From Salvelinus alpinus (Eukaryota > Chordata > Actinopteri > Salmoniformes > Salmonidae), in NCBI RefSeq assembly GCF_045679555.1, contig NC_092094.1:31278552-31342551 (forward strand): a DNA stretch of 64,000 nt, written 5' to 3'. How positions within the stretch are numbered: position 1 is the first letter of the stretch; every line of letters starts with the position of its first letter. The notes under the pieces were generated by a model. That model searched no databases, was not told where the DNA came from, and saw only the letters and a list, made by a program, of their open reading frames with translations. Made by a program: the position numbers and the translations under genes. This document shows positions 7,647 through 45,271 of the stretch, piece by piece.

Positions 7647-7927
7647 TGTCACGCTCTGATCTGTTTCACCTGTCCTTGTGCTTGTCCCCAGCTCCTCCAG
7701 GTGTCGTTTATTTTCCCCAGTGTATTTATCCCTGTGTTTCCTGTCTCTCTGTGCCAGTTTGTCTTGTTTGTCAAGTCAACCAGCATTTTTGTTTCTCAGC
7801 TCCTGCTTTCCCAGTCTCTCTTTTCTCACCCTCCTGGTTTTGACCCTTGCCTGTCCTGACTCTGAGCCCGCCTGCCTGACCATCTGCCTCCTGTGTCTGA
7901 ATTTGGGTCTCGTCTTGTGCCCTTATA
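7647..7927 (+). repeat. 5' LTR of the Gypsy element
   Basis: Begins TGTCACGCTCTGATCTG and ends GTGCCCTTATA, matching 10702-10980 along its length with scattered differences. The outer end is TA instead of the usual CA in both copies. Confidence 0.88.
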
Positions 7928-7940
7928 GTACGAACTGGCC

Positions 7941-8305
7941 ATGACAGACCCAGCAGACTTGGACCAGCTCCGTCACACTGTCTCCCTGCAGGGAGCCATC
8001 ATTGGGAGGCATGAGGAGTTACTTCGGTACCTTTTGGAAGGGCTTCGTTCCCTGACGGAACGCCACGACCAAGGGTTTAAGGTGATAATGGAGCAAATCC
8101 GTGAAGTAGCTCATAGGCAGCATGCCACATCTGAAACCTCCCAACTTCCCAACCACCCAGTAACCTTTCTACTAGTTGTGGATTGGTTCAACCTACCCCG
8201 GCTCCCCAAGAACCCTGCTTACCTCCTCCGGAGTGTTATGCAGGTGATCCTGGTACCTGCCGGGCATTCCTTTCCCAGTGCTTCCTCATTTTCGAATTCC
8301 CCGGC
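7941..8305 (+). pseudogene. gag fragment of the Gypsy element
   Basis: The ORF starts MTDPADLDQLRHTVSLQG, the start of the Gag structural protein in this chromovirus group, followed by a helical stretch (HEELLRYLLEGLRSLTERHD). The frame breaks near 8180 and homology continues in another frame ([17 protein letters not shown]), then stops at about 8300, where the sequence jumps directly to reverse-transcriptase homology. The zinc knuckle and protease are absent. Confidence 0.75.
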
Positions 8306-8319
8306 ACCACACCACCTCG

Positions 8320-9240
8320 TGGCCGGCTATATTCTCTATCCGGGCAGGAGACCAAGGCCATGGAGGAGTTCATAGAGGAGTCTCTGGCTACTGGAGGCAT
8401 CCATCCGTCTGCATCTCCTACCAGCGCAGAGTTTTTCTTTGGAGAAGGACAATGCGTCCGTGCATTGACTACCGGAGTCTTAATGATATAACGATCAAGA
8501 ATCGTTACCGCCTACCACTCCTCTCCTCGACTTTCAAACTTCTCCAGGGGGCCACCATTTTTTTCCCAAGCTGGACCTTCGGAATGCCTACCACCTGGTT
8601 TGGATACGCAAAGGAGATGAGTGGAATACAACATTTAACACAGCCAGCGGACATTATGAGTACCAGGTCATGCTGTTTGGACTCACCAATGCCACCACTG
8701 TCTTCCAGGCCCTGGTAAACAATATGCTCCAGGACATGTGAAATAATTTTGTGTTCGTCTACCTTGACGATATCCTGGTCCTTCAGCGCCTCCTGGAGAA
8801 CCAGTTGTTTGTGAAAGCTGAGAAGTGTGAGTTCCACCGCTCTACAATCTACTTTCTGGGATATGTCATCGCTGATGGAAATGTCCAAATTGATCCTGAA
8901 AAGGTGAAAGTAGTGGTAGATTGGCCTCAACCTAAGTCCAGGGTGCAGTTACAATGTTTCCTGGGGTTCGCTAACTTCTACCGCCGTTTCATTCGGGGCT
9001 ACAGCACGCTGGATGGTGCTGGAAGAGTGGAGGCACTGGCTGGAAGGAGCAGAACAGCAATTTTTGGTTTGGACTGACCATAAAAATTTGGAATATCTCT
9101 GTACAGTCAAGCGCCTTAACTCCAGGTAGGCCCGGTGGGCTTTGTTGTTTTCAAGATTCAACTTCACCATTTTCTACCGCCCAGAGTCCAAAAATGTGAA
9201 GCCTGACGCCTTCTCCCACCTATACAGTTCCTCTGCCACA
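8320..9240 (+). pseudogene. Reverse transcriptase and RNase H fragments of the Gypsy element
   Basis: Scattered frames carry RT landmarks: [19 protein letters not shown] near 8460, FVYLDDILV at about 8750-8780 with the catalytic Asp pair, and [18 protein letters not shown] near 8970. After that the sequence skips the connection domain and resumes with [10 protein letters not shown] (9068-9100), the late RNase H region, and YRPESKNVKPDAFSHLYS. A stop near 8740 and several frame changes rule out a working enzyme. Confidence 0.8.
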
Positions 9241-9369
9241 CCCTCGGTCGCCAAGACCATTCTCCCTACCTCATGCCCTGCGGCTTCAGTGGTTTGGGGT
9301 ATTAAAACCCTGGTTAGCAAGGCACAACGTTCCCAGCCTGAACCTGAAGGGCTGACCGGTTGTTTGCCC

Positions 9370-10000
9370 CAAACTCAGTCCGGTCCCAGGTCCTGGAATG
9401 GGCTCATTCCTCCAGGCTGACCTGTCATCCAGGTTCCCGTCGAACCCGAGCTTTCCTCCGACAATGTTTCTGGTGGCCCACAATGGTTCCTGACGTCTCT
9501 GCCTTCATCGCCGCGTGCACTGTGTGTGCTCAGAACAAGACTCCACCGCAAGCTCCATCTGGCCTCCTTCAGCCACTACCTCTCCCTCATCATCCCTGGT
9601 CCCATATCTCTCTGGACTTTGTCACTGGGCTCCCTCCGTCTGATGGCAACACCGTCATTCTGACGGTAGTGGATCGGTTCTCCAAAGCTGCCCATTTTCA
9701 TCCCTCTCCCCAAACGACCCTCTGCCAAGGAGACGGCCCAGCTCATGGTGCAGCACGTCTTCCGGATCCATGGACTCCCGGTGGACATTGTCTCTGACCG
9801 GGGTCCTCAGTTCTTGTCTCAGTTCTGGAAGGCGTTCTGCACTCTTATTTGGTCGTCGGCCAGCCTATCCTCCGGATTCCATCCCCAATCCAACGGCCAG
9901 TCGGAACAAGCTTACCAAGACCTGGAAACCACCCTACAATGCCTGGTCTCAACCAACCCCACTTTCTGGAGCCGGTAACTGGTCTGGGTGGAGTATGCCC
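9370..10000 (+). pseudogene. Integrase fragment of the Gypsy element
   Basis: It contains the Zn-binding end (CTVCAQNK) and the core with the first catalytic Asp in [15 protein letters not shown]. The second is in [13 protein letters not shown] after a frame change near 9745. The E-bearing segment is [11 protein letters not shown]. The frameshift separates the two Asp residues. Confidence 0.8.
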
Positions 10001-10429
10001 GGAACACCCTTCACTGTTCAGCCACGGGACTCTCATCTTTGGAGTGCTCCATGGGGTATCAGCCTCCGATCTTCCCAGAACAAGAGCAGGAAGTCAACGT
10101 ACCCTCGGCCCAGATGTTCGTCCGCCACTGTCGAAATACCTGGAGAAGAACTCGTGCGGCACTTCTCAAGACCAACTCCAGGTATCATCAACAAAAGGAT
10201 CGCCGCCGGACTCCAGCTCCCCGCTACCGCATTGGGCAGAGTGTATGGCTTTCCACACGGGACCTGCCCCTTCAGGTGGAGTCCCGCAAACTGTCCCCCC
10301 CATTTCATTGGTCCTTTTTCCCATCTCTAGAGTCCTTAGTTCCACTGCTGTTCGTCTCTTGTTACCCCGTACCCTCCGTTTTCACCCTACTTTCCATGTG
10401 TCTAGGATTAAGCCCGTGTCTCACAGCCC

Positions 10430-10680
10430 TTTGTCATCTGTCTCCAGGCCCACCCCTCCTCTCCGTGTCATCGATGGCCATCCGGCATACACGGTAAAAC
10501 GCCTCCTGGGTGTTCGACCACGAGGCAGGGGTTTCCAGTACCTGGTTGACTGGGAAGGTTACGGCCCGGAGGAGAGGTGCTGGGTTCCCACTAGAGACAT
10601 TCTGGATACAGCCCTCATCGCAGACTTCCACCGCCGATACCACGGTCAACCAGGTATGCGCCCAGGTAGGACCCCAGGTG
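10430..10680 (+). pseudogene. Chromodomain at the C terminus of the Gypsy pol
   Basis: [20 protein letters not shown], then [17 protein letters not shown] is a chromodomain of the kind that targets chromovirus integrase to chromatin. The aromatic and acidic positions look preserved. It lies in a frame open from 9849 to 10988 but is cut off from an intact integrase. Confidence 0.8.
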
Positions 10681-10701
10681 GCGCCCCTAGAGGGGGGTTG
10701 C

Positions 10702-10980
10702 TGTCACGCCCTGATCTGTTTCACCTGTCCTTGTGCTTATCCCCACCCCCACCAGTTGTCGCTTATTTTTCCTGGTGTATGTATCCCTCTTTCCTGTCTC
10801 TCTGTGCCAGTTTGTCTTGTTTGTCAAGTCAACCAGCTTTTTTGTTTCTCAGTTCCTGCTTTCCCAGTCTCTTTTTTCTCGCCCTCCTGGTTTTGACCCT
10901 TGCCTGTCCTGACTCTGAGCCCACCTGCCTGACCATCTGCCTCCTGTGTCTGAATTTGGGTCTCGTCTTGTGCCCTTATA
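10702..10980 (+). repeat. 3' LTR of the Gypsy element
   Basis: Begins TGTCACGCCCTGATCTG after a GAGGGGGG polypurine tract at 10690-10697 and ends GTGCCCTTATA, followed by the right-hand AATCT duplication. Confidence 0.88.
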
Positions 10981-11115
10981 AATCTTAAGGTTTTGGGCTG
11001 TGATTTCAGTTTAGAATGTTGAAGCCTGCATTCCGCCATTGAAATGAATAGGGATACAACAAGCTTTAAAGTTCATGAATTATGAATGGTAGAAAAAAGC
11101 TGTGTTGATGCCATC

Positions 11116-11573: not shown

Positions 11574-12553
11574 TTGCCAAAGAAACTGGCTGTTAGAGCT
11601 GGAGAACAGAAGATGGCCGACCTTCCACAAGATCGGGTGTCACCTGATTTGCCGCCTTTCACCCATGTGGGCATAGATTACTTCGGCCCCATAGAGGTGA
11701 AGCGAGGCCGTGTTCATGTGAAGCGGTATGGTGTGATCTTTACTTGCCTTGGAGTCGAGCTGTCCATCTAGAAGTTGCTAGTTATCTGGATACTGATTCC
11801 TGCATCAATGCCCTGCGCAGGTTCATCTGTCGAAGGGGCCCAGTAACAAGTATAAGAACCGACAATGGCACCAACTTTGTTGGAACACACAGAGAGCTAG
11901 GAGAAGCTCTGAAAGAGCTGGATCACAACAAGATTCAAAATGAATTACTGAAGGAAGGAGTGACATGGTCATTCAACCCTCCCTCTGGAGCCCACCATGG
12001 GGGGGTATGGGAGAGGTTGATCCGACTGGTGAAAAAGATCCTCTATTCAGTCCTTAAAGAACAAGTACTGGATGATGAGGCTTTGCAGACAGCCTTGTGT
12101 GAAGTTGAGGCGATTATGAACGACAGACCAATCACTACTGTAACAAATGACCCTAATGATCTAGAACCCCTGACTCCGAACCATCTGCTTCATCTGAAAG
12201 CAAAGCCAGTCCTGCCACCAGGATTATTCCAGAGAAGTGACCTATACTCACGAAGGAGATGGAAGCAAGTACCATATATCACTGACCTCTTCTGGAAGAG
12301 ATGGATCAGGGAGTATCTTCCACTTATGCAGGAGCGGAACAAGTGGAACAGAACTAAGAGAAACTTCAGTCCTGGTGACCTTGTGGTCATCGTCGATGAC
12401 ACCGCCCCAAGGAACTCTTGGCTAATGGGGCATGTGGTGAAGGCTTTGCCAGGGGCCAAAGGTCTTGTCCGGAGTGTCATGGTTAAGACTAAGACCAATA
12501 TCTTACAGAGACCTATCAATAAACTCTGTCTGCTCCTTGAGGCGACGGAGTGA
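11574..12553 (+). pseudogene. BEL/Pao integrase with DUF5641 domain, one frameshift
   Basis: The integrase core is clear: HVGIDYFGPIEVKRG (first Asp), IRTDNGTNFVG (second Asp) and NPPSGAHHGGVWERLIRLVK (catalytic Glu). The C-terminal DUF5641 region follows (FWKRWIREYLPLM, APRNSWLMGHVV, RPINKLCLLLE), a hallmark of BEL/Pao elements. The frame changes near 11755, between the first and second Asp. Nothing of gag, protease or RT precedes it, so the element is 5'-truncated. From 11744 to the stop at 12553 the frame is fully open. Confidence 0.85.
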
Positions 12554-15077: not shown

Positions 15078-16694
15078 CAGTGGGGAGAACAAGTACTTGA
15101 TACACTGCTGATTTTGCATATTTTCCTACTTACAAAGCATGTAGAGGTCTGTAATTTTTATCATAGGTACACTTCAACTGTGAGAGACGGAATCTAAAAC
15201 AAAAATCCCGAAAATCACATTGTATGACTTTTAAGTAATTAATTAGCATTTTATTGCATGACATAAGTATTTGATACATCAGAAAAGCAGAACTTAATAT
15301 TTGGTACAAAATCCTTTGTTTGCAATTACAGAGATCATACGTTTCCTGTAGTTCTTGACCAGGTTTGCACACACTGCAGCAGGGATTTTGGCCCACTCCT
15401 CCATACAGACCTTCTCCAGATCCTTCAGGTTTCGGGGCTGTCGCTGGGCAATACGGACTTTCAGCTCCCTCCAAAGATTTTCTATTGGGTTCAGGTCTGG
15501 AGACTGGCTAGGCCACTCCAGGACCTTGAGATGCTTCTTACGGAGCCACTCCTTAGTTGCCCTGGCTATGTGTTTCGGGTCGTTGTCATGCTGGAAGACC
15601 CAGCCACGACCCATCATCAATGCTCTTACTGAGGGAAGGAGGTTGTTGGCTAAGATCTCGCAATACATGGCCCCATCCATCCTCCCCTCAATACGGTGCA
15701 GTCGTCCTGTCCCCTTTGCAGAAAAGCATCCCCAAAGAATGATGTTTCCACCTCCATGCTTCACGGTTGGGATGGTGTTCTTGGGGTTGTACTCATCCTT
15801 CTTCTTCCTCCAAACACGGCGAGTGGAGTTTAGACCAAAAAGCTCTATTTTTGAATCATCAGACCACATGACCTTCTCCCATTCCTCCTCTGGATCATCC
15901 AGATGGTCATTGGCAAACTTCAGACGGGCCTGGACATGCGCCTGCTTGAGCAGGGGGACCTTGTGTGCGCTGCAGGATTTTAATCCATGACGGCGTAGTG
16001 TGTTACTAATGGTTTTCTTTGAGACTGTGGTCCCAGCTCTCTTCAGGTCATTGACCAGGTCCTGCCGTGTAGTTCTGGGCTGATCCCTCACCTTCCTCAT
16101 GATCATTGATGCCCCACGAGGTGAGATCTTGCATGGAGCCCCAGACCGAGGGTGATTGACCATCATCTTGAACTTCTTCTATTTTCTTCTATTTTCTAAT
16201 AATTGCGCCAACAGTTGTTGCCTTCTCACCAAGCTGCTTGCCTATTGTCCTGTAGCCCATCCCAGCCTTGTGCAGGTCTACAATTTTATCCCTGATGTCC
16301 TTACACAGCTCTCTGGTCTTGGCCATTGTGGAGAGGTTGGAGTCTGTTTGATTGAGTGTGTGGACAGGTGTCTTTTATACAGGTAACGAGTTCAAACAGG
16401 TGCAGTTAATACAGGTAATGAGTGGAGAACAGGAGGGCTTCTTAAAGAAAAACTAACAGGTCTGTGAGAGCCGGAATTCTTACTGGTTGGTAGGTGATCA
16501 AATACTTATGTCATGCAATAAAATGCAAATGAATTACTTAAAAATCATACAATGTGATTTTCTGGATTTTTGTTTTAGATTCAGTCTCTCACAGTTGAAG
16601 TGTACCTATGATAAAAATTACAGACCTCTACATGCTTTGTAAGTAGGAAAACCTGCAAAATCGGCAGTGTATCAAATACTTGTTCTCCCCACTG
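15078..16694 (-). mobile_element. Tc1-like transposon with long inverted repeats and TA duplication
   Basis: The ends are TA/CAGTGGGGAGAACAAGTA and its reverse complement TACTTGTTCTCCCCACTG/TA, with inverted similarity running roughly 150-200 bp inward on each side. The TA pairs at 15076-15077 and 16695-16696 are the target duplication. The element is 1617 bp, standard for Tc1, and carries a transposase on the minus strand. Confidence 0.92.
15294..16326 (-). pseudogene. Tc1-like transposase, nearly intact (DD34E type)
   Basis: The likely original start is at 16326 ([20 protein letters not shown]). The N-terminal helix-turn-helix region reads to GAIIRK and then meets a TAG where a Trp codon is expected, followed by a small duplicated AAATAGAAG and a frame change. 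From 16166 the remaining 290 residues are open. They hold the catalytic region: [11 protein letters not shown] (first Asp), HDNDPKH (second Asp) and [13 protein letters not shown] (Glu). The catalytic core looks whole, but the DNA-binding end is broken. Translation from the downstream ATG would lack the first helix-turn-helix. Confidence 0.9.
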
Positions 16695-18560: not shown

Positions 18561-19744
18561 TATATTACTAGTGACAACGCCTATGCGTCATCTAAGTCTA
18601 AACTTTGCATCAATTTAACCCAAACAAACTCTACTGTTGGTCTGGCTTCCTCCTGTTTGATTGATGACTCGCCTTCTGCCTCTGCTGGGGGTGGTGATTG
18701 GATGTGAGATATCTCATCCACCAGTCGTTTGTCTCCCACTCAAGAGGCAGAGCCAGTGGTGAAGATGTGGGCGGATCCAGTAAGGGAGGTGTCATCAGAG
18801 CCCTTTTTTGCTCTCCTGCATCAAACCCTGACCTGTTCACCGGACGTGCTACCTTGTCCCGTTAGAGGAAATGTCTTTGACATGGGTAGTTAAACAGCTG
18901 TATCGTTTGATTGGTATAATATATTTTGGTTCTGAGTTCAGATTTGAAAAGCAGAGAAGTGGATGAAGATGTGATTAACTTTTTGTCTCAGTTGTTGGCA
19001 AAGTGGTCAAAGTGAATGAAGATGGGCAAAAAGGACAAAAAGTCTAACCTTCAGTGGCGATTTTAGCTTGTAAATCTTGGTGGGACAAAAAAAACAAAAA
19101 AAATGGGGGTTGCATGCCAGCACAGCCACTACACTACACAACACAACACTAACCAATACATTCATTGGACTATAACGGTGTCAAACGGTATCCAAAAACG
19201 GTTAGGGCCTACATAAAGCTGTCCCAACAGCAGAGCTTTCTTTTCAGCACCATAGAGTGAATCCTTACACCTGGCTATCAGCGGAGCCTTGTCTGGCAGC
19301 AAAACAGTTCATTCAGCCTCATTTACTGCCTTTAAAAAAAGGGTTGGGCAGGCTCGGTGCTCGAGACCTGTAGTACGCCTCCACGGTCCGGTCTATCCGG
19401 TGCCTTCTCCACGCACCAGTCCGCCTGTGGCAGCCCCTCGCACCAGCCCAGTACCACCAGTGGCAACACAACGCACCAGGCTTCCTGTGCATCTCCAGAG
19501 TCCAGTACGCCCTGTTTCTCCTCCCCGCACTCGCCCTGAGGTGCGTGTCCTCAGCCCGGTACCACCAGTGCCGGTACCACGCACCAGGCATCCAGTGCGT
19601 CTCCAGGGTCCAGTACTCCCTGTTCCTGCTCCCTGCACTCGCCCAGAGGTGCGTGTCCCCAGCCCGGTACCACCAGTTCCGGCACCACGCACCAGGCCTA
19701 CTGTGCGCCTCAGCAGGCCAGAGTCTTCCGTCTGTCCAGCGCCG

Positions 19745-19927
19745 CCTGAGCTGCCCGTCTGTCCAGCACCGCCTGAGCTGCCCGTCTGTCCAGCGCCGCC
19801 TGAGCTGCCCGCCTGTCCAGCGCCGCCTGAGCTGCCCGCCTGTCCAGCGCCGCCTGAGCTGCCCGTCTGTCCAGCGCCGTCTGAGCCGCCCGTCTGTCCT
19901 GAGCCGTCAGAGCCGCCCGTCTGTCCT
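19745..19927 (+). repeat. 27-bp minisatellite coding PELPVCPAP
   Basis: About six to seven copies of a CCTGAGCTGCCCGTCTGTCC-containing 27-bp unit, keeping frame with the surrounding ORF. Confidence 0.85.
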
Positions 19928-20246
19928 GAGCCGCTAGAGCCGTCCGTCAGTCAGGAGCCGCTAGAGCCGTCCGCCAATCAGGAGCCGCCAGAGCCGCCCG
20001 CCAGTCAGGAGCCGCCAGAGCCGCCCGCCAGTCAGGAGCCGCCAGAGCCGCCCGCCAGTCAGGAGCCGCCAGAGCCGCCCGCCAGTCAGGAGCCGCCAGA
20101 GCCGCCCCCCAGTCAGGAGCCGCCAGAGCCGCCCGCCAGTCAGGAGCCGCCAGAGCCGCCCGCCAGTCAGGAGCCGCCAGAGCCGCCCGCCAGTCAGGAG
20201 CCGCCAGAGCCGCCCGCCAGTCAGGAGCCGCCAGAGCCGCCCTTCA
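19928..20246 (+). repeat. 27-bp minisatellite coding EPPEPPASQ
   Basis: About twelve copies of a GAGCCGCCAGAGCCGCCCGC-containing 27-bp unit, the central ones nearly identical, which suggests recent expansion. Confidence 0.9.
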
Positions 20247-20860
20247 GTCCGGAGCTACCCCTCAGTCCTGAGTTGCCCCTCAGTCCGGAGCTGTCCTTCA
20301 GTCCGGAGTTGCCCTCAGTCCGGAGTTGCCCCTCAGTCATGAGCTACCTCTCAGTCATGAGCTACCCCTCAGTCATGAGCTACCCCTCAGTCATGAGCTG
20401 CCCCTCAGTCCGGAGCTGTCCCTCAGTCCGGAGTTGCCCTCAGTCCGGAGTTGCCCCTCAGTCATGAGCTACCTCTCAGTCATGAGCTACCCCTCAGTCA
20501 TGAGCTACCCCTCAGTCATGAGCTACCCCTCAGTCATGAGCTGCCCCTCAGTCCTGAGCTGCCCCTCAGTCCGGAGCTGCCCCTCAGTCCGGAGCTGCCC
20601 TTCAGTCCGGAGTTGCCCTCAGTCCGGAGCTGCCCCTCAGTCCGGAGCTGCCCCTCAGTCCGGAGCTGCCCCTCAGTCATGAGCTACCTCTCAGTCATGA
20701 GCTACCTCTCAGTCATGAGCTACCTCTCAGTCATGAGCTACCCCTCAGTCATGAGCTGCCTCTCAGTCATGAGCTACCCCTCAGTCATGAGCTGCCCCTC
20801 AGTCATGAGCTGCCCCTCAGTTCGGAGCTGCCCCTCAGTCTGGAGGAGTTTCCTCAGTCC
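20247..20860 (+). repeat. 18-bp minisatellite (CCCCTCAGTCATGAGCTA family)
   Basis: About 33 copies of an 18-bp unit with CAGTCATGAGCTA, CAGTCCGGAGCTG and CAGTCCGGAGTTG variants arranged in higher-order blocks. It encodes six-residue repeats in all three frames. Confidence 0.9.
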
Positions 20861-21083
20861 AGAGGCGCTCCTCAGTCCGGTGGGGCCCTTTATTAGGGTT
20901 CCCAGGCCAAGGTCGGCGGTGAGGGTCGCCGCTCAAAGGACGCTAAGAAAGCGGACAAAGACAATGGTGGAGTGGGGTCCACGTCCAGCGTAAGAGCCGT
21001 CACCGCGGACAGATACCCACCCAGACCCTCCCCTATAGGTTCAGGTTTTGCGGCCGGAGTCCGCACCTTGGGGGGGGGGGTAC

Positions 21084-26509: not shown

Positions 26510-28600
26510 CAAAATCAAATCAAATCAAATCTATTTATATAGCCCTTCTTACATCAGCTGATATCTCAAAGTGCTGTACAGAAACCCAGCCTAAAACCCC
26601 AAACAGCAAGCAATGCAGGTGTAGAAGCACGGTGGCTAGGAAAAACTCCCTAGAAAGGCCAGAACCTAGGAAGAAACCTAGAGAGGAACCAGGCTATGAG
26701 GGGTGGCCAGTCCTCTTCTGGCTGGGCCGGGTGGAAATTATATATAACAGAACATGGCCAAGATGTTCAAATGTTCATAAATGACCAGCATGGTCAAATA
26801 ATAATAATCACAGTAGTTGTCGAGGGTGCAGCAAGTCAGCACCTTAGGAGTAAATGTCAGTTGGCTTTTCATAGCCGATCATTAAGAGTATCTCTACCGC
26901 TCCTGCTGTCTCTAGAGAGTTGAAAACAGCAGGTCTGGGACAGGTAGCATGTCTGGTGAACAGGTCAGGGTTCCATAGCCGCAGGCAGAACAGTTGAAAC
27001 TGGAGCAGCAGCATGGCCAGGTGGACTGGGGACAGCAAGGAGTCATCATGCCAGGTAGTCCTCCGAGAGAGAGAAAGAAAGAGAGAAAGAGAGAATTAGA
27101 GAGAGCATCCTTAAATTCACACAGGACACCGGAAAAGACAGGAGAAGTACTCCAGATATAACAAACTGACCCTAGCCCCCCGGCACATAAACTACTGCAG
27201 CATAAATACTGGAGGCTGAGACAGGAGGGGTCAGGAGACACTGTGGCCCCATCCGATGATACCCCCGGACAGGGCCAAACAGGTAGGATATAACCCCACC
27301 CACTTTGCCAAAGCACAGCCCCCACATCACTAGAGGGATATCTTCAACCATCAACTTACCATCCTGAGACAAGGCCGAGTATAGCTATAGCCCACAAAGA
27401 TCTCCGCCACGCCACGGCACTGGAGTAATATGATCAAATTGTTTGGTTCTAGTCAGGATTCTAGCAGCCGTATTTAGCACTAACTGAAGTTTACTTAGTG
27501 CTTTATCCGGGTAGCCGGAAAGTAGAGCATTGCAGTAGTCTAACCTAGAAGTAACAAAAGCATGGATTAATTTTTCTGCATCATTTTTGAACAGAAAGTT
27601 TCAGATTTGTGCAATGTTACGTAGATGGAAAAGAGCTGTCCTTGAAACAGTCTTGATATGTTCGTCAAAAGAGAGATCAGGGTCCAGAGTAACGCCGAGG
27701 TCCTTCACAGTTTTATTTGAGACAACTTTACAACCATCAAGATTAATTGTCAGATTCAACAGAAGATCTCTTTGTTTCTTGGAACCTAGAACAAGCATCT
27801 CTGTTTTGTCCGAGTTTAAAAGTAGAACGTTTGCAGCCATCCACTTCCTTATGTCTGAAACACAGGCTTCTAGCGAGGGCAATTTTGGGGCTTCACCATG
27901 TTTCATTGAAATGTACAGCTGTGTGTCATCCGCATAGCAGTGAAAGTTAACATTATGTTTTCGAATGACATCCCCAAGAGGTAAAATATATAGTGAAAAC
28001 AATAGTGGTCCTAAAACGGAACCTTGAGGAACAATGAAATGTACAGTTGATTTGTTAGAGGACAAACCGTTCACAGAGACAAACTGATATCTTTCCGACA
28101 GATAAGATCTAAACCAGGCCAGAACTTGTCTGTGTAGACCAATTTGGGATTCCAATCTCTCCAAAAGAATGTGGTGATCGATGGTATCAAAGGCAGCACT
28201 AAGGTCTAGGAGCACGAGGACAGATGCAGAGCCTCGGTCTGACGCCATTAAAAGGTAATTTACCACCTTCACAAGTGCAGTCTCAGAGCTATGATGGGGT
28301 CTAAAACCAGACTGAAGCATTTCGTATACATTGTTTGTCTTCAGGAAGGCAGTGAGTTGCTGCGCAACAGCTTTTTCAATTTTTTTTGAGAGGAATGGTA
28401 GATTCGATATAGGCCGATAGTTTTTTAAATATTTTCTGGGTCAAGGTTTGGCTTTTTCAAGAGAGGCTTTATTACTGCTACTTTTAGTAAGTTTGGTACA
28501 CATCCGGTGGATAGAGAGCCGTTTATTATGTTCAACATAGGAGTTCCAAGCACAGGAACCAGCTCTTTCAGTAATTTATCTGCAATGTATGTTTGCTAGC
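26510..28600 (-). mobile_element. LINE (L2/Rex1-like), 5'-truncated, minus strand
   Basis: The 3' end lies at the low coordinate and finishes in an AAATC/GATTT repeat (26510-26531), followed by a long 3' UTR containing AGCCCTTCTTACATCAGCTG, typical of a very abundant teleost LINE. The coding remnant at 27601-28320 is a reverse transcriptase. Upstream of about 28320 only degenerate sequence remains, and no endonuclease is present. Confidence 0.8.
27601..28320 (-). pseudogene. LINE reverse transcriptase core
   Basis: An open frame of 239 residues contains [31 protein letters not shown] (RT motif A, catalytic Asp), [18 protein letters not shown] (motif B) and [11 protein letters not shown] (motif C, YADD), then the thumb-like [19 protein letters not shown]. 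All catalytic Asp residues are present. It is cut at both ends, so it cannot act alone. Confidence 0.88.
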
Positions 28601-29186: not shown

Positions 29187-29574
29187 TGTAACCGGTGTGA
29201 AATGGCTAGCTAGTTAGCGGGGTGCGCGCTAATAGCTTTTCAATCGGTGACGTCACTTGCTCTGAGACCTTGAAGTAGTTGTCTCCCTTGCTCTGCAAGG
29301 GCCGCTGCTTTTTTTATTTTTATTTTTTAAATTTTATAAAAACCTTTATTTAACTAGGCAAGTCAGTTAAGAACAAATTCTTATTTTCAATGACGGCCTA
29401 GGAACAGTGGGTTAACTGCCTTGTTCAAGGGCTGAGCGACAGATTTGTACCTTTTTACCTTTTGTGGAGCGATAGGTAACAATGCTTCAGGGGTGACTGT
29501 TGTTGATGTGTGCAGAGGGTTCCTGGTTCGAGCCCAGTTAAGGGCGGGGAGAAGTATGGAAGCAATACTGTTCT
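29187..29574 (+). mobile_element. Solo copy of the TRIM LTR with a nested SINE fragment
   Basis: TGTAACCGGTGTGAAATGGC ... GGAAGCAATACTGTTC follows the minus-strand sequence of the 236-bp LTRs at 30707 and 31005, but more diverged. It is interrupted at 29309-29457 by a T-rich segment with CTTTATTTAACTAGGCAAGT, the reverse of a salmonid SINE/LINE tail. No second LTR is nearby. Confidence 0.75.
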
Positions 29575-30232: not shown

Positions 30233-30706
30233 TTATTACATGCTGACCAGACCGGACATGTCGCGTGCGCGAGCGTCGCAAAATAAATGTAGAAATTCAT
30301 GTTATTCAATTATTGCACCCACACTGCTCGCGCGCGCCAACGAGCGTCTGCGACGCCAAGGGTTAAAATAGAAGTCATTCCTATTTCTGACGCAGATCGC
30401 GCTGAAAGTCCTGCCTCTCCCATCTCCTCATTGGTTTACAGAAGCAGGTACCCACGTGCCATCTCCTCATTGGTTATACCCACGTGATTGAAAGACAAAC
30501 TGTTTTGCCGGTAGTCGTGGTAATACTATAAAAGTTTAGATGCGATCACCATATAAGTTCAAAGATGAAAAAGCCTGGAAGGAGGAGAGATGAATAGAAA
30601 AGATTCGGTTGGCCATTTTATGTGTGGATTAATTTGGAGTAGAGGACCTTGTGCAGTTCAGGTAAAATAACAACTCAATGTTTATATCCCAGGACAAATT
30701 AGCTAG

Positions 30707-30942
30707 TGTAACAGTATAACTTTAGACCGTCCCCTCGCCCCGACACGGGCGCGAACCAGGGACCCTCTGCACACATCAACAACTGACACCCACGAAGCGT
30801 CGTTACCCATCGCTCCACAAAGGCCGCGGCCCTTGCAGAGCAAGGGGAAACCCTACTTCAAGTCTCAGAGCAAGTGACGTAACCGATTGAAACGCTATTA
30901 GCACGTACCCTCTAACTAGCTAGCCATTTCACATCCGTTACA
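30707..30942 (-). repeat. 3' LTR of the TRIM
   Basis: 236 bp. On the minus strand it holds a CRE-like TTACGTCAC and a tRNA-like part: A-box-like GGAGCGATGGGTAACGACGC and B-box-like GGTCCCTGGTTCGCGCCC (plus 30747-30764). A polymerase III-derived segment inside an LTR would parallel plant Cassandra elements, whose LTRs carry 5S rRNA sequence. Confidence 0.85.
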
Positions 30943-31004
30943 CTCACCCCCCTTTCAACCTCCTCCTTTTCCGCAGCAACCAGTGATCCGGGTCACGGCA
31001 CCAA

Positions 31005-31240
31005 TGTAACAGTATAACTTTAGACCGTCCCCTCGCCCCGACACGGGCGCGAACCAGGGACCCTCTGCACACATCAACAACTGACACCCACGAAGCGTCG
31101 TTACCCATCGCTCCACAAAGGCCGCGGCCCTTGCAGAGCAAGGGGAAACCCTACTTCAAGTCTCAGAGCAAGTGACGTAACCGATTGAAACGCTATTAGC
31201 GCGTACCCGCTAACTAGCTAGCCATTTCACATCCGTTACA
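31005..31240 (-). repeat. 5' LTR of the TRIM
   Basis: 236 bp. Differs from the other LTR only near 31203 and 31211 (GCGCGTACCCGC versus GCACGTACCCTC), which points to recent insertion. Confidence 0.85.
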
Positions 31241-32963
31241 CTAGCAACAGCAAGCTAGCTAAATAGGACAAATTAGCTAGCAACAGCAAGCTAGCTAAAT
31301 AGGACAAATTAACTTTAGTTAGCAAGTGCAAGCTAACTAGCTAAATTGCCATACATGTTTAATGCTTTTCGACCTGTCCCCAAATTAATGTCATTGGTTC
31401 AGAGTTTGTTTTGATATTTTAACCTGCGTGTCGTGATCGTGTTTGGTGTGGGGGGACAAAATACATTTATGCACGATAGCGCACGCGCGCAGCCGGTTTG
31501 GGTTCCGTGTCAACAGGTAAAGCTGTAAAGCGCAATATGAATGTCAATACACACAATATGCTGATTTGGGAGGTGCTTTCACAGTCACACGATAAGAGCT
31601 ACTACGCTAATATTTGCGTAAACTCTTCACAGTTGTGTTCTGTGCGTGTCACGGAGTAGATTGATAACCCATTGCATTCATTGCTTCACATTCCAATCTT
31701 GTTTAACATGATCTAGTTTAAATATGGCATGATTACACCAATTGTAACCCTCGGCATCACTTTTACTTGTATTTTGAAGGGAAACCGCAAATTACACTAT
31801 TGTGCCTAATCCTTATTGTGGCTAGCCTCACAACACATAACCCGGGGCCTGTTGCACAAAACTAGGATAAGGGATTAAGCCAGGATATCTTGGTGATCCT
31901 GGCTCAATTGATCCGTAATCCGGTTGCACTAAAGATGGATAGGGGGCAGGAGGATATGTTATGGTATAAATTACCATGGAGATTTATTCTGTGGAGCTAG
32001 CCTGCTCCAGACCAGGCTAAATTCCAGGATCTATTTAATCTCATCCCTAATGTCAGTCAGCAGTCACCACAAATGGAAACCAATAGTTATTTCACTGCTC
32101 ACTATACATTGTTATCACATATAACTAGACCCACTGTTATTATTTAAACGTTTGTGATCATTAATTTCAATGATTTTGGATAAAAAATGATTTTTAGATG
32201 ATGTTGCTATCATTAGATAATTTACAGTTTCCCATAGACTATAAGGCTATATATAAAATGATAGAATATTAGGGCCACAGAGGGGAAAAAAACACAAGTC
32301 ATAATATTGTAACCAGTTGTTTTAAAGGAGGACAGTTGTTAAAATGACAGATGTGGGGCATTTCGTGAAATTGTACTTCAGTATGGTTTCATAAACAAAG
32401 ACATGCTGATGTGCCAGAATATTAAGTATCACATTGTCATAAGTATCAAAACAATATGTAGCTTTTCTGCAGAAAGAACCAGCCTCATAAATTTATGACT
32501 TTATCCTTTTTCTTCAGTGTGGCCCTAGTACTCTGTCATATAAACAAATACACATTCCATATGAATATAAAAACACAATGTGTAACATTATGTTCCTTTA
32601 TTGAATAAGGACAAAACAAAGCAGGTAAACCATCAGCTCCTTTCGAAACTGAAGTCACAGTGACTCTACAAGATGGAAAGCACAGAATCCAAGCATATTA
32701 TACAAAATGATACATACACATTCAAAGGTCTGTATATAACACACCCTGCATGTCTGCACACTAAAATAAATGCAGGACAAATCCATACACATCAACTGAA
32801 CAGACAAATGAATGGATGCAGTAGCCTCCCTGCAGCCTTGTATTACACACAGTATACCGCACAAACATCATAAGAGGCCAAATTCGTCAAAAAACGAACC
32901 CAAAAAAACCCAAATTCCTCTGCCACCGCAGGACATATTTAACCAAAATTGAAAGCACACATA

Positions 32964-40454: not shown

Positions 40455-42363
40455 ATGCAAGCCCGTAGGGTCACCGTTCACCGCATCAGCAAGACCATCA
40501 CCTTGTACCTGAATGACACAGCCTCACCTAAACCCTCCCCTGGCCCTCTGTCTGCCCTGAACGATGCAGCCAGTACCTCGCCATCCCTAGCCCTTACCTC
40601 TGCCCCAACCAAGCCCCTGCTGCTGATGCTGCCCTGGTTGGGGTCGCGACCTCAGGCTGTGGCCAAGTACTGTGAGATCTACTTCCGTACAGGCTTTGAC
40701 GTGCTCATAGTGGAGAGTGCGGTGAGGAAGGGACAACGTTCATGGGTGGAAAAGCTGTAACCATTTAAACATTCTGTTTAGAATGCTCCTCTCTATGGTC
40801 TCCTTTTTCTCTAAAATACCTCTCATATCCCCTCTCCTCTACCCTAGGTGAGTCAGTTCCTGTGGCCTCGCTGGGGCCTGGACTACGGGGCGAGGGTACT
40901 AGATCTCCTGCAGAGTGACCTCTTTGTGTCACGCCCCCTGCTCGTGCACGCCTTCTCCATAGGAGGGTACACCTTCACCCAGCTGTTGGTGCATGTGTCC
41001 CGCGACACACAGAAGTACTGTGGCTTCACTCAGAGGATCAGAGGCCACATCTATGACAGCCTTGTGTTGGGCTCACTGGAGAGGATGGCTACAGGTGAGT
41101 CTGGGGGACAGGGGTTACCGTGAGCGGATACCGACCAGGTGTAACACATCTGACAGCCTAGCATTGTCTAGTATAGCCTGGTTAGAGGTTATAAAGCTAA
41201 CCAGTGAGCTGATGTTGTCCTTTATCCTCAGGACATTTATACTGAACAAAAATATAAACGCAACAATTTCAATGATTTTACTGAGTTAGTTCATAAAAGG
41301 AAATCAGACAATTGAAATTAATTAATTAGGCCCAAGTCTATGGATTTCACATGACTGGGCGGGCATAGGCCCACCCTCTTGGGAGCCAGGCCCAGCCAAT
41401 CCAAATGAGTTTTTCACCACAAAAGGGCTTTATTACAGACAGAAGTACTCCTCAGTTTCATCACCTGTCCGGGTGGCTGGTCTCAGACGATCCCGCAGGT
41501 ATGGAAACCGAATGTGGAGGTCCTGGACTGGAGTGGTTATGCGTGGTCTGCGGTTATGAGGCCGGTTGGATGTACTGCCAAATTCCCTAAAACGATGTTG
41601 GAGATGGCTTATGGTAGAGAAATTAACATTAAATTATCTGGCAACAGCTCTGGTGGACATTCCTGGAGTCAGCATGCCAATTGCACACTCCCTCAACTTG
41701 AGACATCTATGGCATTGTTGTGACAACTGCACATTTCAGTGGCCTTTTGTCCCCAGCACAAGGTGCACCTGTGTAATGATCATTCTATTTAATCAGCTTC
41801 TTGATATGCCACACCTGTCAGGTGGATGGATTATCTTGGCAAATGAGAAATGTTCACTAAAAGGGATGTAAACAAATTTCTGCACATAATTTGAGAGAAG
41901 CTATTTGTGCGTGTGGAAAAATTCTGGAACCGTAGGACCAACACTTTACATGTTGCGTTTATATATTTTTTGTTCACTACATTTTTTCATTATCTCCTCA
42001 GGTCTAGGTAAGAGCCTGTTCCCCTGGCTGGAGAGCCAGGTGAAATGGGCCAGTATGCTCTACTTCAGAGCCTTCAAACACCACACAGTCGACTATTTCA
42101 ACAACGGCATTGATGTCTTCTCGAATAACCCTGTCACCGCACCCGCCCTCGTCTTCTTCTGCCAGAACGACGCACTGTGCGACCCGGAGGGCATGGAGGA
42201 GATCATCGCCTACTGGAGAAAACGAGGGATGGCGGTGACAGACCGGAAGTGGGAGGAGTCAACACATGCAGGTCACCTGAGACGACACCCCCAGGAGTAC
42301 CTGTCTACCTTGGAGTCCTTCCTAAAGACTCTTGGTATGGTCCCTCTCAAGGCCAAGATGTGA
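40455..42363 (+). CDS. TMEM53-like protein (DUF829 alpha/beta-hydrolase fold), three coding exons
   Basis: Exons: 40455-40721, 40848-41094 and 42002-42363, all GT-AG and in frame, encoding 291 residues. The ATG at 40455 is the first in an exon whose acceptor (CCCTTCCAG/ACC) is at 40383, so a 5' untranslated exon lies upstream. The N terminus (MQARRVTVHRISKTITLYLN) is basic and amphipathic, like a mitochondrial presequence. Next come LLLMLPWLGSRPQAVAKYCE and YFRTGFDVLIVES, the first strands of a DUF829 fold. The Ser126 elbow (LVHAFSIGGYTF), the Asp region VFFCQNDALCDPEG and a late His in STHAGHLRRHPQEY could make a hydrolase triad. TMEM53 itself is a nuclear-envelope protein; this sequence differs and may be a paralogue. 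Its substrate is unknown. Confidence 0.9.
41242..41977. mobile_element. Non-autonomous Tc1-like element in intron 2 of the TMEM53-like gene
   Basis: TA/CTGAACAAAAATATAAACGC at the left and GCGTTTATATATTTTTTGTT CAC/TA at the right are inverted ends with TA duplications. The interior (CACCTGTCAGGTGGATGGAT) matches a frequent salmonid Tc1-derived repeat. No open transposase remains. Confidence 0.85.

Positions 42364-43669: not shown

Positions 43670-45271
<1,602 letters not shown>

Follow-up and report, generated by a model that had tools for sequence, protein, structure and literature searches.

Structure of the insertion and its surroundings

The window, that is, the whole stretch of Salvelinus alpinus DNA that was analysed (64,000 nucleotides), contains a TRIM of 534 bp, in which two LTRs enclose a short core with a primer-binding site (PBS) and a purine-rich tract, the whole being flanked by target-site duplications (Table 1). 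The element lies on the minus strand, where its core consists, in this order, of one spacer base, the 18-nt PBS, four bases, an 11-nt block and the purine-rich tract; its ends are TGTAAC and GTTACA. When the flanks are rejoined with a single CTAG, two identical 36-bp units in tandem result, and because this repeat is restored the borders of the insertion are exact. Between the two LTRs there are 2 mismatches in 236 sites (K 0.0085), corresponding to an age of 0.4 to 1.4 million years if rates between 1e-8 and 3e-9 per site and year are assumed. The first-pass annotation of this DNA had described a complete, young, non-coding TRIM and had named its ends, the CTAG duplication, the 36-bp repeat and the purine tract, all of which were borne out; absent from it were the minus-strand orientation, the second block complementary to tRNA-His, the more common form of the PBS (type B) and the captured tRNA copies described below.

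An older lone LTR of the same family is identical to the window LTR at 207 of 232 aligned letters; no 4-bp duplication was found to flank it. The 148-bp insert that interrupts it is AT-rich at one end, and strings of this insert gave no match in a literature text search. Further, the window holds remains of a chromodomain Gypsy element whose repeats (7647-7927 and 10702-10980) are 93% identical, and a frame at 11648-12553 that matches DUF5641 and, weakly, an integrase core, a combination that is presumably that of BEL/Pao elements. An open frame of 294 codons with domains of a Tc1-like transposase (HTH_Tnp_Tc3_2, DDE_3) is located at 15294-16178 and a frame of similar look at 43878-44771; long arrays of 27-bp and 18-bp units at 19741-20878 are open as proline-rich frames, and an open frame with a reverse-transcriptase domain lies at 27601-28440. 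At 41890-42363, a TMEM53-like exon has 90% identity, across 78% of the query, to a Coregonus suidteri protein; its best match (94%) is an unnamed protein, and a rainbow trout protein among the matches listed is 45% identical.

Table 1. Location of the TRIM, its parts and related features in the window (tandem arrays elsewhere in the genome are given by locus)
Feature	Position	Strand	Remark
Remains of chromodomain Gypsy	7647-10988		Integrase zinc-binding and chromo domains
Older lone LTR, TRIM family	29187-29572	+	Interrupted by 148-bp insert, 29313-29460
Target-site duplication CTAG, copy 1	30703-30706	.
3' LTR (element's own sense), 236 bp	30707-30942	-
Core, 62 bp	30943-31004	-
Purine-rich tract	30943-30972	-	Stops at the 3' LTR
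Second tRNA-His block, 11 nt	30971-30981	-	Complement of tRNA-His bases 49 to 38 (own numbering)
PBS type A, 18 nt	30986-31003	-	Complement of tRNA-His 3' end, 1 base off the 5' LTR
5' LTR (element's own sense), 236 bp	31005-31240	-
B-box-like GGTTCGCGCCC in 5' LTR	31045-31055	-	Also in 3' LTR, 30747-30757
Target-site duplication CTAG, copy 2	31241-31244	.
Remainder of target	31245-31300	.	With 30691-30706, two identical 36-bp units after removal of the insert
Tandem LTR-core arrays	L059, L064, L066, L068, L074, L075, L078

The TRIM family in the host genome

A search of the 2.37 Gb assembly (928 contigs) with the 534-bp unit gave 2786 candidates, the best 40 of which were scored; these comprise 52 matches with 93-100% identity on many chromosomes, including the window's own. 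All 39 other loci formed by the 52 matches make up the first sample, which is biased to window-like copies. Exact 4-bp target duplications are found at 34 of the 39 loci, the exceptions being L052, L054, L061, L078 and L079; the flanks of L054 and L061 have three of four bases in common. Read in the sense of the element and with the window included, the first base of the duplication is a pyrimidine in 31 of 35 cases and the last base a purine in 29 of 35. No LTR mismatch is present in 9 of the 33 single copies of the first sample plus window, the mean being 1.4%.

A second sample was drawn from the exact PBS matches on C1 to C3 in the order of their listing, skipping six members of visible arrays, and consists of 20 type-A and 20 type-B loci. 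Simple LTR-core-LTR copies account for 31 of these 40 (13 type A, 18 type B), and exact duplications flank 29 of the 31 (13/13 A, 16/18 B); the remaining nine loci, which are broken, nested or arrays, were left out of the duplication scoring.

Tandem LTR-core-LTR arrays with steps of about 300 bp occur at 7 of the 39 first-sample loci, as would be expected if the family were a non-mobile tandem satellite. This idea has next to no probability: the other 32 loci are not arrays, the exact duplications are as frequent as stated above, and in six of the seven arrays one exact 4-bp duplication encloses the array as a whole; moreover, zebrafish Helenus elements also form tandem arrays, according to the available part of PMC10886601. 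The first-pass annotation had looked to copy number and target duplications in the genome as a check, and to a satellite lacking duplications as the contrary case, and the duplications at the sampled loci contradict the latter. In the genome that the window comes from, this is a large, mobile family.

The PBS and the tRNA-His of the host

Compared with human tRNA-His (sequence as given in the available part of PMC12217144), the PBS matches at 17 of 18 positions, the next best of 10 human tRNAs reaching 14 of 18; the single mismatch faces tRNA base 64, a position counted by hand. No other place in the window comes within three mismatches of the tRNA-His site; among shuffles, 9 of 100 contain such a place. 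The mismatch led to the prediction that the host tRNA has G64. A search of the host genome with a pattern for the tRNA-His 3' half that allowed any base at positions 50 and 64 identified 15 places, all of which (15/15) have C50 and G64; since the host tRNA-His carries these bases, the type-A PBS present in the window matches it at 18 of 18 positions. Of the earlier claim of a 17-of-18 tRNA-His site, the primer therefore stands and the figure holds for the human tRNA, the mismatch disappearing with the host's own.

ARAGORN recognises a tRNA-His in 13 of these 15 loci. Sorted by eye, they fall into eleven plain tRNA-His genes with one sequence, the locus L143, and three loci that lie within TRIM copies (L145, L148 and L149). 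L143 is a tRNA-His with an altered 5' part, which ARAGORN calls as tRNA-His.

A second block complementary to tRNA-His

The sequence following the PBS, GGTTGCTGCGG, also corresponds to tRNA-His. A match of at least 11 nt to the rest of human tRNA-His arose in 6 of 20000 shuffles of the remaining core, and the longest match of the other nine human tRNAs to the core, with both strands considered, is 7 nt. All 52 cores of the 40 loci contain the 11-nt block without a change. A 19-nt run spanning it is invariant among the 52 cores, the longest invariant LTR run being 12 nt among 92 LTRs, a comparison that is only suggestive because the numbers of rows differ. When the part behind the PBS was shuffled 500 times, 22 of the shuffles attained the energy observed for a duplex of the core with the unfolded tRNA, which weakly favours core-tRNA pairing.

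Two types of PBS

Among the 52 cores, 20 carry the PBS found in the window (type A) and 32 a second form (type B), in which two substitutions and an extra T alter the half that faces the tRNA end. Genome-wide, 294 exact type-A strings and 1326 exact type-B strings were counted, that is, type B makes up 1326 of 1620, and reversed controls gave 0; old A copies are undercounted in this exact count because the A string exceeds the B string by one CpG. With the extra T disregarded (one base bulged), type B matches the host tRNA-His at 16 of 18 positions; one of the two odd places allows a possible G-U pair, and one mismatch lies close to the 3' end of the primer. None of the 10 human tRNAs matches type B better than tRNA-His does. 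The second block may, in addition, keep tRNA-His in place on type B despite the damage to that site.

The two types are interleaved. In a tree built from 64 simple copies, of which 27 are type A and 37 type B, the labels A and B change 17 times, at least 9 of these changes being forced by starred branches; with shuffled labels the mean is about 20.7 changes, and 31 to 35 of 500 shuffles were as low as 17, that is, the distribution of the types hardly departs from that of shuffled labels. L052 and L053 (type A) and L056 (type B) are identical outside the PBS across the kept columns, and both types occur together in four of the seven tandem arrays. Exchange between co-packaged RNAs could also mix A and B in this way. 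In the second sample type A is younger than type B, with median LTR divergences of 0.0084 and 0.0389, respectively (p 0.007); however, type A is not always new, because it is also present in the diverged copy L093, the LTR of which is 84% like that of the window.

Copies with longer stretches of tRNA-His

In L145 and L148 the complement of tRNA-His is contiguous over 38 nt, from base 76 to base 38, and consists of the PBS, the nine bases missing from the common core, and the 11-nt block; the LTRs of both are incomplete and a clean target duplication is absent. Base 37 of tRNA-His is a G, and m1G37 stops reverse transcription. In zebrafish, many tRNAs carry m1G37 and nearly all carry m1A58, according to the available part of PMC11417395.

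Whole-tRNA capture is represented by a single copy, L149, which is 623 bp long in total and has TAGA on both sides. Its order is LTR, one T, an exact 75-nt complement of tRNA-His including CCA, a 20-nt stretch resembling the LTR end, a type-B core, and LTR; the tRNA copy is one base from the LTR end, in the place and sense of the primer tRNA. As the CCA is not encoded 3' of the gene in any of the eleven plain tRNA-His genes, the tRNA stretch of L149 looks like a copy of the mature RNA.

The 20-nt stretch resembling the LTR end, which stands after the tRNA copy, could be seen as a target duplication, as if LINE machinery had later inserted a tRNA-His copy into an existing TRIM. Such an origin is very improbable: the flanking stretches do not match exactly, the CCA complement lies one base from the LTR end, at the place of the primer and in the correct sense, and L145 and L148 have the same junction with 38 nt. 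Because of L149, L145 and L148, copying of the tRNA is taken to occur in this TRIM family. What surprises in this family is that its core is tRNA-derived, that its PBS comes in two types and that a primer has been captured; that the family is real, young and abundant could be expected from its published fish relatives.

Probable priming by tRNA-His, and proposed renewal of the PBS

LTR elements are assumed to copy 18 nt of the tRNA that primes them, with a halt at a modified base. For the family described here it is probable, judging from the sequence comparisons, that a non-coding TRIM, with a PBS exact to the host tRNA-His and with proteins borrowed from a retrotransposon, uses tRNA-His as its primer and occasionally as a template. 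Minus-strand DNA would begin on tRNA-His, and plus-strand synthesis would then copy the attached tRNA, usually halting before m1A58 and renewing the 18 nt. Where A58 is unmodified, a situation in which readthrough is possible according to the available part of PMC13191261, copying could proceed past base 58 to base 38 or to the 5' end of the tRNA; copies reaching base 38 would be the source of the second block, and a copy reaching the 5' end would be L149. In overwriting the PBS, copying of the tRNA would convert type B to type A.

A more specific reading is that the PBS is rewritten by the element's own primer, that slips of plus-strand synthesis beyond m1A58 write back 18, 38 or 75 nt, that the two-part site holds the element on tRNA-His and so let a form damaged in its first part spread to over a thousand copies, and that L149 is an integrated intermediate of reverse transcription; it is put forward tentatively, at slightly short of an even chance, and as part of it L149 would carry the tRNA copy and the older template site adjacently. 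That type B is in the majority is at odds with overwriting, which should remove B; either tRNA-His can work on B by way of the second block, with repair going in favour of the template strand, or B is primed by something else.

Two alternatives dispense with this rewriting. Types A and B may be two lineages with fixed sites that swap their PBSs by template switching between co-packaged RNAs, with tRNA copying having no share in the A/B mosaic; this would agree with the arrays containing both types (4/7), with type A in the diverged L093, and with B being abundant and uniform, yet L149 has a tRNA-copied site beside a type-B core within a single insertion, and L145 and L148 carry longer tRNA copies, which makes such an exchange unlikely as the whole account. 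Type B may also be primed by an RNA other than tRNA-His, which would itself renew B, and the 1326 exact strings as well as the damage to the site facing the tRNA end (16/18, with a mismatch near the 3' end of the primer) could be understood in that way; this is unlikely, as no better match was found among the 10 human tRNAs, the LTR has no self-complement of 7 nt or more, and a tRNA-His copy precedes the B core in L149. Self-priming was rejected on the same property of the LTR.

If PBS rewriting by the primer is true, a large young family that has 18-, 38- and 75-nt copies of a single tRNA, and intact as well as damaged sites on like backgrounds, would make renewal of the PBS, use of the primer and the stop at m1A58 readable from genomes, beyond cell assays.

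The source of the proteins

Because the 62-bp core is too small for a gene, the proteins must come from elsewhere, and the enzymes would be supplied in trans by another retrotransposon. A restrictive genome pattern for a longer element with the PBS of the TRIM, from which TRIM-like LTR ends were left out, found four places, all of them TRIM copies. The resident Gypsy element and the TRIM have GGGGGGTNNNTGTNAC in common at the junction of tract and LTR, and this pattern, chosen after both junctions had been seen, occurs at two places in the window, with 0 of 100 shuffles having two. The resident Gypsy was dismissed as a partner, its junction having no tRNA-His site.

Other sequence collections were also searched. 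Pattern scans of viral contigs gave only L042 and L043, which are without a tRNA gene and were read as chance. In GTDB contigs there are 41 matches to a 17-mer; at E 0.01, GTDB gave only matches of 19-21 bp to the TRIM at four loci, likewise read as chance. No match to the TRIM was found in the phage and plasmid collections.

The LTR

The box-B motif GGTTC within GGTTCGCGCCC is unchanged in 92 of 92 LTRs. The tRNA-likeness of the window LTR, taken as the best of ten tRNAs, was equalled in 90 of 2000 shuffles, and that of the older LTR in 127 of 2000. For box A plus B, 164 of 500 shuffles reached the score of the window LTR; for box B alone, where 8 of 10 letters fit, 54 of 500 did so. An Rfam search gave no tRNA match in the LTR. 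With a lowered threshold, ARAGORN calls a tRNA-Thr in both LTRs, and 78 of 500 shuffles also yield a gene; a full tRNA gene in the LTR, unsupported by Rfam and by ARAGORN at default, was discarded. The TTTT stop of polymerase III is absent from the LTR sense strand, as it is in 326 of 1000 shuffles. A putative polymerase III reading of the LTR is thus weak, and the tRNA-likeness that defines Helenus (see below) appears only weakly supported here.

The LTR sense RNA (31005-31240) is predicted to fold strongly, with a long central hairpin (z -4.48; 0 of 200 shuffles as stable).

Relation to known elements

The LTR itself may be long known. In 1988, Moir and Dixon reportedly described a salmonid repeat similar to a retroviral LTR, and we presume that this may be the LTR of the window TRIM. 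In the literature searched, no paper combined both phrases for this repeat, strings of the window LTR had no match in a literature text search, and the literature on "retrotransposons in miniature" together with salmon contained, judged by title, none about a salmonid.

The closest published counterpart is Helenus (TRIMp3), a group of TRIMs with tRNA-like LTRs (Kojima 2024, PMC10886601), and the statement of the first-pass annotation that TRIMs are known mainly from plants and a few animals is outdated by this publication on vertebrates. In the available part of that source, 5575 Helenus LTRs are given for zebrafish, 4-bp duplications are described in animals, and tRNA-His is among the primers in vertebrates. 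With Helenus, for example LTR-11_DR of zebrafish, the window family shares the short LTR-core-LTR structure, the 4-bp duplications, a PBS complementary to a tRNA 3' end, tandem arrays, and a B-box-like motif on the sense strand of the LTR. Unlike in Helenus, the LTR of the window TRIM is weakly tRNA-like, and its salmonid host is outside the host table (Table 1 of PMC10886601), which contains no Salmoniformes. The available part of PMC10886601 mentions for Helenus neither a second block nor two types of PBS nor a captured tRNA, the comparison being one of descriptions and not of sequences. The window family is a TRIM, then, and probably Helenus-like, which is less than a proven member of Helenus; it would add a TRIM of the salmon family, likely recently active, to a group listed from other fishes.

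The two-part site has a parallel in yeast Ty1, where, according to the available part of PMC5371799, the bipartite PBS is likewise made up of two segments, separated by a small loop, that are both complementary to the same primer tRNA. In contrast to Ty1 as described there, the window TRIM uses another tRNA, its second segment faces bases 49 to 38, the element is non-coding, and annealing of the segment is predicted.

The longer tRNA stretches, finally, resemble the primer over-extension sequence of lentiviruses and spumaviruses, which, in the available part of PMC13191261, is complementary to the tRNA beyond the 18-nt PBS and is tied to copying past m1A58. There, however, the over-extension adjoins the PBS, whereas the common core of the TRIM has four other bases replacing nine, and the stretch copied in the TRIM, unlike that described for these viruses, extends to base 38 or to the 5' end of the tRNA.
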